Assembly: GCF_014205845.1 (NCBI RefSeq) | Contig: NZ_JACHCR010000011.1 | Location: 62,001 to 126,000, forward strand | Reading direction: 5' to 3' | Origin: Mucilaginibacter cryoferens | GTDB taxonomy: Bacteria; Bacteroidota; Bacteroidia; Sphingobacteriales; Sphingobacteriaceae | DNA: 64,000 bases | Shown: one piece after another, positions 34,752 to 38,231 of the stretch | Numbering within the stretch: position 1 is the stretch's first letter | Layout of the letters: the number at the start of each line of letters is the position of its first letter | The notes under the pieces: model-generated | What the model was told of the DNA's origin: nothing | What the model saw: only the letters and a program-made list of their open reading frames with translations | Database searches by the model: none | Translations under genes and position numbers: made by a program

Positions 34752-35047
34752 AGATATTAGACCAGTTTGATAAAGCTTTTGAAAACCGCATACGCCTGCA
34801 AATTATGAGCGTACTGGTTGCCAATGAAAGCTATGATTTTAATTCGCTTAAAGACTTGCTCGATCTTACCGACGGCAACCTGGCCTCGCACCTTAAAGCG
34901 CTGGAGAAGGAGGAATACATCGTAGTGCAAAAAAGCTTTATCGGCCGCAAACCCAATACCCGCTACCTGGCGTCAGAAAAAGGTCGTACCGCCTTCAGAT
35001 TACATTTACAGGCACTCGAAAATTTAATAAAACAACAGAAACTATAA
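34748..35047 (+). CDS. Winged-helix transcriptional regulator (HTH_34/ArsR-like)
   Basis: 99 residues from GTG 34748. RIRLQIMSVL, SLKDLLDLTDGNLASHLKALEKEEYIVVQK and FIGRKPNTRYLASEKGRTAF are the recognition helix and wing of small one-domain regulators of the HTH_34 type. No metal-binding cysteines, so not a metal sensor. It probably controls its own operon with the membrane protein upstream, with which it overlaps by 4 bp. Confidence 0.88.
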   Translation: MKILDQFDKAFENRIRLQIMSVLVANESYDFNSLKDLLDLTDGNLASHLKALEKEEYIVVQKSFIGRKPNTRYLASEKGRTAFRLHLQALENLIKQQKL

Positions 35048-35473
35048 TTTTTTTTATTTACTTTGAAATACAACGCTTTAAAAAACCTTTAAACCATTTA
35101 TCCGAAAACTAGACCATAAAAGCCTCTCCTTCATATCAGCAACGCGATCTGCAATTTTTTATAAATCCACTTGGTTTTAAAAAAATAATTGCACCTTTGC
35201 ATTAATTCCTCAATTGTTAACTCATAATAAAATAGGAATCATGACGCAGAGTATCTCCAACACATCCCTTTAGTTTAGCTGCCATTTAGGCGGACGAGCA
35301 TTCTATTTACTTTTTTTGAATCAATCTCTGGCGATAGTTTCATTGGTGTAAAACTTTGTTTGTTTTCTCTTTACGGGCTCATTTCTGAACTTTCTACAAA
35401 GGGATATATCTGCTATGGCAGACGAATTTTTAACATCCCAACATATTAAAGAAAGAATAAAACGTAAAGTCCG
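35048..35473. other. Long leader region before the RtcB-PrfH gene group
   Basis: About 425 bp with no long ORF. It holds a 10-codon ORF at 35241-35273 (ATGACGCAG...CTTTAG) and a 39-codon ORF starting at 35415 that overlaps the next gene in another frame. No clear -7/-33 promoter, sigma-54 site (GG-N10-GC with flanks) or RtcA-type signal was found. The length is unusual for this window and could hold regulatory RNA. Confidence 0.5.
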
Positions 35474-35534
35474 ATGGACATGCATGATTGGCCGTACATT
35501 AAAAAGTCGGCCCGGAGAAAGAAGCAACTCGTAA
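35415..35534 (+). CDS. Possible small ORF overlapping the basic protein gene
   Basis: ATG 35415 opens 39 codons (MADEFLTSQHIKERIKRKV..., basic) and ends at 35534, 60 bp inside the next gene in a different frame. It may be chance, a leader peptide, or the true N-terminus of the next protein if a base is wrong or frameshifting occurs here. No direct evidence decides between these. Confidence 0.2.
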   Translation: MADEFLTSQHIKERIKRKVRWTCMIGRTLKSRPGERSNS

Positions 35535-36199
35535 AAAAAGACTTCGATAAAAAGCTGATCCAGCTTGATAAGTTACATAACGACTTATGGAATAAACGAA
35601 ATAACTTGCCTATGGTGCCCCTGGAGCACCCTTATCAAAGGGGCTGGCAGCGCCTGTTTGCTTTAAGCACAGATATACAACAGGGCAACATGGCCCAATT
35701 TTACCAAGGCTTGCTAAGTAAAATTAATACTATTAGGTACCATCAAAGCAGGGAGTTTAAAAGACGGAGAAAAAGAAGACGGAGAAAATTTGTTTATGAT
35801 GATTCGGTACAAACACTGCGGGTTATTGACAGCTACAACTGGTTGCAGAACACGCTACAGTTTACCGATGCCGAAAAAGCGTTTTTTGCCCCTAAAGAAG
35901 TATGGTCGTACAGGTTTAGCAAGTATATAATACGATATGAGTTTACAGAACCCTGGCGATTTATATTAGTAACCATTCCCCGTATTATTTACGAAAAGAG
36001 GCTATACAACGATGAACTGGAGCAGGAGCTAAGCGAAATAAAAAACTACCTGGATAATACCCGCAGGCAAACCCGGCTTTACAAGTTAAAGGGCAAAACT
36101 TACAGGTATAGATGGGATTCGTTTCAAGACCCGCGGTATATTAATCATTTAAAAAACAAACCCATGTACACCTCAAAAGAGGCCTACCTGGATTATTAA
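35474..36199 (+). CDS. Very basic protein of unknown function, first gene of the rtcB-prfH group
   Basis: 241 residues. I do not recognise the family. It begins MDMHDWPYIKKSARRKKQ, has NLPMVPLEHPYQRGWQRLF (about 45-63), then a run of Arg/Lys (about 95-106, FKRRRKRRRRKF), an aromatic-rich part (VWSYRFSKYIIRYEFTEPWRF) and a predicted helix LYNDELEQELSEIKNYLDN. No membrane segment, signal or cysteines. The strong positive charge suggests RNA or ribosome binding (inference). rtcB starts 12 nt after its stop, so it is very likely co-transcribed with rtcB and prfH. Start may instead be the Met at residue 3. Confidence 0.75.
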   Translation: MDMHDWPYIKKSARRKKQLVKKDFDKKLIQLDKLHNDLWNKRNNLPMVPLEHPYQRGWQRLFALSTDIQQGNMAQFYQGLLSKINTIRYHQSREFKRRRKRRRRKFVYDDSVQTLRVIDSYNWLQNTLQFTDAEKAFFAPKEVWSYRFSKYIIRYEFTEPWRFILVTIPRIIYEKRLYNDELEQELSEIKNYLDNTRRQTRLYKLKGKTYRYRWDSFQDPRYINHLKNKPMYTSKEAYLDY

Positions 36200-36211
36200 A
36201 ACAATACCCTT

Positions 36212-37612
36212 ATGGGCAATTTAAAAGCAAAAGAATTAGATAAAATAGGCTATGCTGACGATAAGCTGAAAAGCCTGGTTATAAACACCATCGCCAAACA
36301 CTATAAGCATCAGGATAAGACTGCCACCATTGCGTTATTAACAGCTGTGAAGCAAAACCCGGCAGCCTACGTAAGCAACAACCATTTACAAAAAATAGCC
36401 GAAGCATTTATCAAAAGCGAAGCTGTAGATGATGTAATACCATTTAAACTGATGGAAACACCAGCACCGCTTAAAATTTATGGAAGCGATGAAATTGAAG
36501 AGATAGCTAAAAGGCAAATGGCCCTGGCGCTATTATTACCCATAAGCATGCAGGGTGCTTTAATGCCCGATGCACATAGCGGCTATGGCCTGCCTATCGG
36601 CGGCGTACTAGCCACCCGCAACGCGGTTATCCCCTACGGTGTAGGTATGGATATTGGATGCCGCATGGCTTTAAGCATTATTGATGCCGATGAAAAGTTT
36701 ATGAAACGCTATGAGCACCAGGTTAAACAGGCAATGGGTAAATGGACACATTTTGGGATGGAAGGCTCGTTTCCGGTGCCACAGTATCACGAAGTATTGG
36801 ATAGTCCTGCCTTTACAGAAACGCCCCTGCTTAAAAAACTGCATGGTAAAGCAGTACAGCAATTAGGCACATCGGGCAGCGGCAATCACTTTGTAGAGTT
36901 TGGGTTGATAGAGCTATCTGACAATAACAGTTTAGCCCTGGCTCCTAAAACGTATATGGTTTTGCTCACCCACTCGGGCAGCCGGGGTTTAGGCGCTAAT
37001 ATTGCCCGGCACTATACCCAGATAGCTATGGATACCTGCAAGCTATCGCGCGAAGCACAACCGCTGGCCTGGCTCGATCTCGCCAGCGAAGCCGGGCAGG
37101 AGTACTGGATGAGCATGACCCTGGCCGGCGATTATGCCAGTGCCTGCCATGATTGGATTCACATCAACTTACTAAAAGCGCTAGGCTTAAAAGTACTGCA
37201 CAAGGTACAAAACCATCACAACTTTGCCTGGAAAGAAGTCCTTGCAGATGGCAGCCAAGCTATTGTACACCGCAAGGGCGCCACGCCTGCACACAAGGGC
37301 GAGCTGGGCATTATACCCGGCAGCATGGCCACACCGGCTTATTTGGTAATAGGTAAGGGCAATACCGGTGGATTAAATTCGGCATCGCACGGAGCGGGCC
37401 GCGCCATGAGCCGGCAGGATGCTAAAGCAAGCACTACTAAAGCCGCCATGAAAAAGATGCTTGCGCAAAACAACGTAACGCTGCTTGATGGCAGTATAGA
37501 AGAAAATCCCTTAGCCTATAAGGATATTGAAACCGTGATGGCAGCCCAAACAGAACTGGTTACCATACAGGGGAAATTTTGCCCGCGAATTGTACGCATG
37601 AATAAAGAATAA
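36212..37612 (+). CDS. rtcB: RNA ligase RtcB (RtcB2 type, paired with PrfH)
   Basis: 466 residues. RtcB active-site elements are all present: MDIGCRM with the metal-binding Asp and Cys (about 147), SGNHFVEFG with His (about 223), THSGSRGLG with His (about 254), [20 protein letters not shown] (about 350-369) and [10 protein letters not shown] with the guanylylated His (about 393). RtcB joins 2',3'-cyclic phosphate or 3'-phosphate ends to 5'-OH RNA using GTP and Mn2+. The position directly before prfH (4-nt gap) identifies it as the form thought to reseal damaged rRNA; it lacks the usual neighbours of tRNA-splicing RtcB such as archease. Confidence 0.93.
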
Positions 37613-37616
37613 CAAA

Positions 37617-38231
37617 ATGAAAAAACTAATTATACAAATAACAGCAGGCAAAGGCCCGCTGGAATGTTGCAGGGTGGTAGCCAAAGTACAGGACCTGATG
37701 CTGAAACAGGCGTTGGGCGCAGGGTTGGAACTATCCCTGATAGAAAATAAAAAAGCGGAGCTAACCGGCACCTTGTTATCCTCAACCCTATTATTGCAGG
37801 GCAATAATAGGGCAGCATTTATAACAGAATGGAACGGCACCATCCAATGGATAGCCCCAAGCCCCTACCGTAAATTTCACAAGCGCAAAAACTGGTTTGT
37901 GGGTATAGGCATTTTTAATGTTGATGAACAGGTAAAATTTAACCCCAATGACGTAAAGTTTGAAACCATGCGTGCATCCGGACCGGGAGGGCAAAATGTA
38001 AACAAGGTAGAAACCGCAGTGCGGGGTACACACAAACCAACGGGTTTACAGGTGATGGCCATGGATAGCCGTTCGCAATTGCAAAATAAAAAACTTTGTG
38101 TAGACCGATTGGAAGCAAAACTAATGGCACGGCAAATCGAAAAGCAAATTGTCCAACTCGAAAACCAATGGATAGCCCATAACTCGTTAGAAAGAGGAAA
38201 TGCGGTGAAAGTGATTACCGGGGAGTTGTAG
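37617..38231 (+). CDS. prfH: Peptide chain release factor homologue PrfH
   Basis: 204 residues, much shorter than RF1/RF2 (about 360). The catalytic loop [17 protein letters not shown] (GGQ at about 123-125) is intact, while the stop-codon-reading domain is absent. [19 protein letters not shown] is the PrfH signature. The GGQ releases the nascent peptide at the peptidyl-transferase centre; PrfH is reported to act on ribosomes whose 16S rRNA has been cut in the decoding centre, after which RtcB repairs the RNA. Last gene of the group; a palindrome follows at 38248. Confidence 0.93.

Follow-up and report, generated by a model that had tools for sequence, protein, structure and literature searches.

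On contig NZ_JACHCR010000011.1 of Mucilaginibacter cryoferens (Sphingobacteriaceae, Bacteroidota), within the 64,000 nucleotides (nt) analysed here (the window), the genes of the RNA ligase RtcB and of peptide chain release factor H (PrfH) follow a gene for a basic protein of 241 amino acids (aa), and all three stand behind a conserved RNA of 233 nt, referred to below as the class A leader. The three closely spaced genes form one run behind this single leader. We tentatively read them from the sequence as an inducible ribosome-repair operon, a reading whose chance we put just under even: the leader RNA, RtcB, PrfH and the 241-aa protein as an optional RNA- or ribosome-binding helper would be switched on together when translation of the leader fails. 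The switch itself we infer. The preliminary description of this DNA had correctly placed the three genes in one direction, on the forward strand, with intergenic gaps of 12 and 4 nt (Table 1), and it overlooked the leader, which is the more surprising part of the locus than the third gene.

The leader was delimited with an alignment of 27 loci (A1), in which the ATG of a short open reading frame (ORF) is invariant. RNAalifold applied to A1 predicted a long-range helix, P1, and a hairpin, P4, and 7 of the 10 pairs were changed on both sides somewhere in the alignment. When the helix P0 was added, 94.4% of the cells paired, compared with 89.9% in shuffles, and changes on both sides occurred in 22 cells versus 4.5 in shuffles; the leader sequences are related, so these covariation figures are not probabilities. 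Sliding the partners by one to three columns lowered pairing to at most 70.5% from the 94.4% found in register. The count of further pair types was the weaker measure (19 versus 16.1, reached by 22 of 500 shuffles). P1 of the window is a perfect helix of 8 bp and lies one alignment column out of register. Most aligned leaders are preceded by a TnnnTTTG-like stretch, and the promoter-like TTGCACCTTTG of the window resembles the sequence that we take to be the Bacteroidota −7 element (TAnnTTTG). No Rfam model reached its gathering score in window positions 35040–35520, where the best matches (E 0.62 and 3.7) were far below gathering.

Genome sets were drawn at the family (201 genomes), genus (149) and class (295) levels, with pooled loci counted without overlaps, and the distribution of the leader was followed with the covariance model R1 in the family and class draws. 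R1 matched 31 places in 29 of the 201 family genomes, and every one of them lay at one of a few genes: a member of the 241-aa family, rtcB (prfH present or absent), a TPR gene, or the decayed remains of the pair. The five places outside the training set were found in G066 (leader–rtcB–TPR), as a second place in G031 (leader–TPR), in G085 (contig end), in G025 (decayed pair) and as a second place in G048, where prfH lies 1.6 kb downstream by coordinates. The TPR protein (171–172 aa) is encoded after leader–rtcB in G066 (L119:6073-6588) and behind its own leader copy in G031 (L120:4468-4983, + strand); the leader therefore marks a small gene set. Four of the 295 class-draw genomes were matched, all four at these operons, and two of them (G389 and G533) were new and came from other families; the large scans were run with strict filters, by which weak matches are lost. 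Among 48 loci that came from the gene searches described below, 42 carry a class A leader at E ≤ 4e-9, training loci included. At the rtcB–prfH leader match of G335, a Flavo-1 RNA (Rfam RF01705, E 6.7e-14) was observed just behind it on the opposite strand (L243:1727-1829, −).

A short ORF, with its ATG near the aligned place and an in-frame stop within 16 codons, was present in 59 of 59 class A leaders chosen by R1, whereas shuffles gave 54% and at most 71%; the position of the ATG was allowed to vary. The short ORF thus seems to be kept, and its peptide sequence is perhaps irrelevant. Since the 5′ arm of P1 lies inside the leader ORF, a ribosome translating the ORF or ending in it would hold P1 open. 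Three further ideas about the leader were tried and dropped. The idea that class A works through a conserved peptide found no support, the codon positions being equally conserved and 5 of the 59 leaders stopping after 7 codons. A loose scan for a class A intrinsic terminator gave weak and scattered candidates in 17 of 32 leaders. Comparison by eye with the sequence of the 16S decoding site brought out nothing convincing in favour of the leader as its mimic.

Other rtcB loci offered a comparison. The sister set comprised 29 rtcB loci with another or no recognised leader, namely 11 family loci (class B) and 18 class-draw loci. A sense-strand intrinsic terminator was located within 400 nt upstream of rtcB in 20 of the 29 (7 of 11 and 13 of 18), compared with 15 of 64 control gaps (up to 400 nt) beside other genes in the family loci (Fisher test, 3.8e-5); nine loci had none by the same criterion, and in two of the 18 class-draw loci (L190 and L195) a gene of the 241-aa family occupies that place instead. 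In 18 of the 19 loci that satisfied a stricter pattern, a short ORF ended 20–29 nt before the terminator. The stretch at the ORF end paired with the 5′ arm of the terminator above shuffles (p ≤ 0.05) in 13 of these 19 loci, with a mean z of −2.3. The sister leaders with a terminator thus often carry a short ORF and a possible antiterminator as well. A model of 13 sister leaders (R2) matched 6 of the 295 class genomes, all at its own training loci, which speaks for its specificity only. One sister leader, L239, gave weak, below-gathering scores to the amino-acid operon leaders His_leader (RF00514, E 0.17) and Thr_leader (RF00506, E 0.078).

Both downstream genes score above the cut-offs of their curated models. 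RtcB scored 253.9 bits to PF01139 (cut-off 27) and contains the motifs DIGC (residue 147), GNHF (224), HSGSRG (254), NHHN (334) and HGAGR (393), which we take to be its metal and guanylylation residues. These residues had been described as all kept. The five motifs are indeed present and four of them align with their counterparts in Pyrococcus horikoshii RtcB (1uc2), but NHHN falls in a poorly aligned stretch. No second RtcB was found in a search of the whole genome (6.95 Mb, 64 contigs). PrfH, encoded 4 nt downstream of rtcB on the same strand, is a TIGR03072 equivalog match (235.2 bits, cut-off 166.65), it matches the structures 9mor_A and 7sa4_8, both named release factor H, and its GGQ, noted in the preliminary description, lies at residue 124. 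The same description was wrong in stating that PrfH lacks the stop-codon domain: the alignment covers residues 109–288 of RF2, so it is domain 1 of the release factor that is missing and the codon-recognition part that is kept.

Table 1. Features of the leader and operon in the window, and proteins recorded at related loci.
Feature	Position	Strand	Basis
Promoter-like stretch TTGCACCTTTG before the leader	35189..35199	+	sequence only, non-experimental
Class A leader RNA, 233 nt	35201..35433	+	alignment A1, covariance model R1
P0 helix, 5′ arm ATTCCT	35205..35210	+	
P0 helix, 3′ arm AGGAAT, one base short of the leader ATG	35234..35239	+	
Leader ORF, 10 codons and stop (MTQSISNTSL*)	35241..35273	+	
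P1 long-range helix, 5′ arm ATCCCTTT, within the leader ORF	35264..35271	+	RNAalifold, pair counts
P1 long-range helix, 3′ arm AAAGGGAT	35398..35405	+	RNAalifold, pair counts
P4 hairpin TCTGCTATGGCAGA, then CGAATTTTT	35409..35422	+	RNAalifold, pair counts
Basic 241-aa protein, unnamed family, accessory operon gene	35474..36199	+	ORF list, family searches
RtcB RNA ligase, 466 aa	36212..37612	+	PF01139; alignment to 1uc2
PrfH (peptide chain release factor H), 204 aa	37617..38231	+	TIGR03072; 9mor_A, 7sa4_8
Second RtcB type	L051:8440-9837, L052:17361-18758, L059:7199-8548, L178:7308-8657		
ISGGWAWHFMS/HDHKDID protein	L195:4890-5432, L227:6480-7025, L234:5544-6149, L236:6918-7463		

The tie of the first gene to rtcB–prfH, proposed in the preliminary description, was supported. 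When the three draws were pooled, 48 of 56 loci of the 241-aa family adjoined rtcB and/or prfH, so its homologues are not mostly unlinked; prfH is present at 43 of the 48 (in split frames at one of them), reduced to a fragment at one and absent from four. Of the 201 genomes of the family draw, 15 bear the gene, 33 have a PrfH above cut-off and eight have both (hypergeometric, 6.6e-4). Eight of these 15 loci read gene–rtcB–prfH, with rtcB split by a frameshift in G168, and three read gene–rtcB without PrfH above cut-off (G127, G181 and G179); the remainder comprised one gene divergent from an rtcB paralogue (G155), two beside neither gene (G173 and G110) and one decayed fragment (G120). The genus draw gave the gene in 38 of 149 genomes and 39 loci, two contig-end pieces in G267 being treated as one gene. 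A same-strand rtcB lay downstream in 34 of the 39, a count which includes L162 (rtcB truncated, prfH missing), L168 (rtcB broken), L167 (prfH split) and L169 (prfH fragment).

Beyond the family, nine of the 295 class-draw genomes bear the gene, and each of these nine belongs to the 22 genomes whose PrfH passes the cut-off (hypergeometric 1.2e-11, shared ancestry ignored). The gene order varied there: the gene precedes rtcB in G000, G021 and G533, in G423 and G538 it stands 2–4 nt ahead of prfH and no rtcB adjoins it (RtcB being encoded elsewhere in both genomes), and it follows prfH in G405, G415 and G467. G578 carries in a single run two family copies, which precede rtcB, then two ORFs (one with a weak nucleotidyltransferase match), prfH and a TPR-like gene. 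The gene is under purifying selection (ratio of nonsynonymous to synonymous substitution rates 0.07–0.25, median 0.18, for the 14 closest pairs out of 185 usable ones), and this, together with its recurring place before rtcB, argues that the gene and its setting are more than chance. A second type of RtcB, 46–48% identical to that of the window, is encoded 0.4–8 kb from the 241-aa gene in several genomes (Table 1); in G155 the two genes are divergent and about 390 nt apart. Between rtcB and prfH at some loci lies a gene for a protein of 180–201 aa with ISGGWAWHFMS and HDHKDID motifs (Table 1), and the two such proteins that were scanned gave a weak, below-cut-off match to an uncharacterised nucleotidyltransferase family.

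As a third component the first gene is linked to the pair but not obligatory. Of 15 class A loci without the gene, three (L072, L073 and L074) retain remnants of its start as well as its end in the gap before rtcB (E 5e-19 to 4e-6), and in L070 and L071 a remnant of its end only was recognised (E 8e-5 and 3e-7); among 300 shuffled gaps used as a control, one reached 8e-5 and the next best 2e-3. In some lineages the gene was therefore lost by internal deletion, with leader, rtcB and prfH retained. The 241-aa gene is thus a genuine but optional partner in the operon. The pair itself also decays. At the leader-bearing loci L052 (G168), L121 (G025), L162 and L168, rtcB is frameshifted, decayed, truncated or broken, so parts of the family are in the course of losing the pair. 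In the window, the start codon of the 241-aa gene lies within a small inverted repeat, GTCCGATGGAC (positions 35470–35480; same place in L050, L053, L054 and L056), where a hairpin is possible; at gene-less loci the start of rtcB often reads CCCACATGGG.

The product of the first gene is basic and highly charged (isoelectric point 9.99; 51 lysines and arginines versus 28 aspartates and glutamates), with a predicted helix at residues 13–43. It had been described as lying outside the recognised families, and the library searches agreed: the window's protein had no match in Pfam, NCBIfam, PADLOC, PHROG or among the sequences of the PDB, and no single Pfam family was hit by more than three of 70 aligned family members, the best E being 0.012. 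Among 5.8 billion proteins, a search collected 71 relatives, the window's protein included, and a wider profile 311, among the best 120 of which a second branch, Tenacibaculum included, was found. Profiles of the two branches without shared members (A2 and A6) proved homologous (profile–profile probability 96.8%, E 2.2e-10, 204 columns). The RRRKRRRR run noted earlier is real (residues 97–104), but it is absent from the second branch. Structure prediction, which had been suggested as a check, produced AlphaFold2 models of both branches with similar confidence (predicted local distance difference test 87.6 and 85.9), their elements following a comparable order, but neither model had a significant structural match. 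One viral relative of 190 aa, which turned up twice, was recorded on the 105-kb contig IMGVR_UViG_3300044998_000260 (L238:4887-5456, +), where its gene sits in an array of 25 predicted tRNA genes spanning 10 kb; no rtcB or prfH was found within about 5 kb of it (best RtcB match E 0.72). The window's protein had no match in 50,697 annotated phage records.

On the reading as a repair operon, cutting of the decoding centre, or another failure of translation, would stop ribosomes from running through the short leader ORF. With the ORF unread, P1 could form and would switch the operon on, and its counterpart in many other operons of Bacteroidia would serve as an antiterminator. PrfH would then free the peptide and RtcB would reseal the 16S rRNA, as reported for the Escherichia coli pair, while the 241-aa protein would act as an optional helper, most likely binding rRNA or the damaged subunit via its basic helix and basic hairpin. 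The leader RNA would be a better candidate for the sensor than this protein. Several results weigh against the scheme. The codon positions of the leader are conserved equally (0.876, 0.872 and 0.865) and another frame also closes in 90% of class A leaders, so translation of the leader ORF is putative. A scan of the window gave four terminator-like sites compared with 5.0 in shuffles, so class A offers no convincing terminator for P1 to act on. Of the 31 family-draw matches of R1, 26 are training loci, and in the attenuator test on the 19 sister loci the most favourable terminator was kept per locus and the loci share ancestry. As for the helper, 25 of 33 prfH-bearing family genomes are without the 241-aa gene in front (judged by similarity to the window's protein), and structure searches recognised no RNA-binding fold in its family.

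The class A leader could instead be a binding site for an operon protein (RtcB, PrfH or the 241-aa protein) or for a ligand, serving autoregulation or RNA stability without any sensing of translation. The strong conservation of unpaired and loop sequence around GGGTATATCC would suit such a site, as would the lack of a convincing class A terminator and of conservation of the leader codons as codons. We consider this unlikely, if still a serious contender: the leader also precedes a lone TPR gene (L120) and the 241-aa gene without rtcB (G173 and G110), so that it lacks a constant neighbour among the genes of the operon proteins, and the sister leaders resemble translation-coupled attenuators. 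The 241-aa protein, for its part, might respond to the same stress behind the same leader and yet take no part in the repair reaction, for instance as a protective or anti-toxin protein that acts on its own and is only co-regulated. Eight of the 56 loci (G110, G120, G155, G173, G238, G243, G246 and G310) have neither rtcB nor prfH adjacent, and five of these (G110, G120, G173, G243 and G246) carry a class A leader at E ≤ 4e-9, the match in G155 being weak (0.016) and the other two having none; the gene was also lost repeatedly while the pair stayed. Otherwise it nearly always shares one gene run with rtcB or prfH, in varied arrangements (ahead of rtcB, ahead of or behind prfH, or in two copies), which suggests a common process for the protein and the pair and makes mere co-regulation rather improbable. 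It seems very improbable that the protein makes up in trans for the helical domain 1 present in RF1 and RF2 and missing from PrfH.

The core of the operon is of a known kind. A two-gene rtcB–prfH operon was described in 2006 (PMC1586002), and in the available excerpts of PMC9223846 the pair is reported to shield E. coli ATCC 25922 from colicin E3, its proteins releasing the peptide from ribosomes cut in the 16S decoding centre and resealing them. The order rtcB then prfH, a few nt apart, is that of the E. coli-type RtcB–PrfH (RFH) operon as given in the excerpts of PMC1586002; the window differs by the extra first gene and the conserved leader, neither of which is mentioned in those excerpts of the two papers. 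Accessory genes of RFH–RtcB operons listed in the excerpts of PMC6514570 (Burroughs and Aravind 2019) encode a TPR protein, a Pol-beta nucleotidyltransferase, a zinc ribbon with a charged helix and a charged helical protein without homologues. With the last of these the 241-aa family shares the RFH–RtcB neighbourhood, the lack of a Pfam match and high charge, as far as descriptions alone can be compared, and it may be the same protein.

Regulation by a leader also has a parallel. For PA5471.1-armZ-PA5470 of Pseudomonas aeruginosa, transcription attenuation responding to ribosome-targeting antibiotics has been proposed, and there too a leader ORF precedes an RtcB-like gene with prfH adjacent (excerpts of PMC12057347). 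That system differs in phylum and sequence, and armZ is an anti-repressor of MexZ; a terminator of the PA5471.1 type is not convincing in the class A leader of the window but present in sister leaders. L239 is like the amino-acid operon leaders RF00514 and RF00506 in its short ORF, alternative helices and terminator, unlike them in having rtcB–prfH downstream, and the leader of the window matches neither. A leader or attenuator at a Bacteroidota rtcB–prfH operon was not found described in the titles and abstract beginnings screened from the open-licence PMC literature.

More broadly, and with less than even confidence, we suggest that rtcB–prfH operons of Bacteroidia may sense the damage to their own target through translation of a leader ORF, by antitermination in many lineages and, in Sphingobacteriaceae, by the terminator-free class A leader as a new RNA family, with the unnamed basic family recruited behind this switch as an optional helper. 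The problem for the cell, as we frame it, is to notice the cutting of the decoding centre when cut ribosomes hardly make repair proteins. If the proposal is true, a leader that folds according to whether it is translated would explain how such damage is sensed. The 241-aa family is now defined, with its several gene orders, orphan copies and deletion scars, and the covariance model marks these operons in genomes. The leader would make damage sensing by the operon directly testable.

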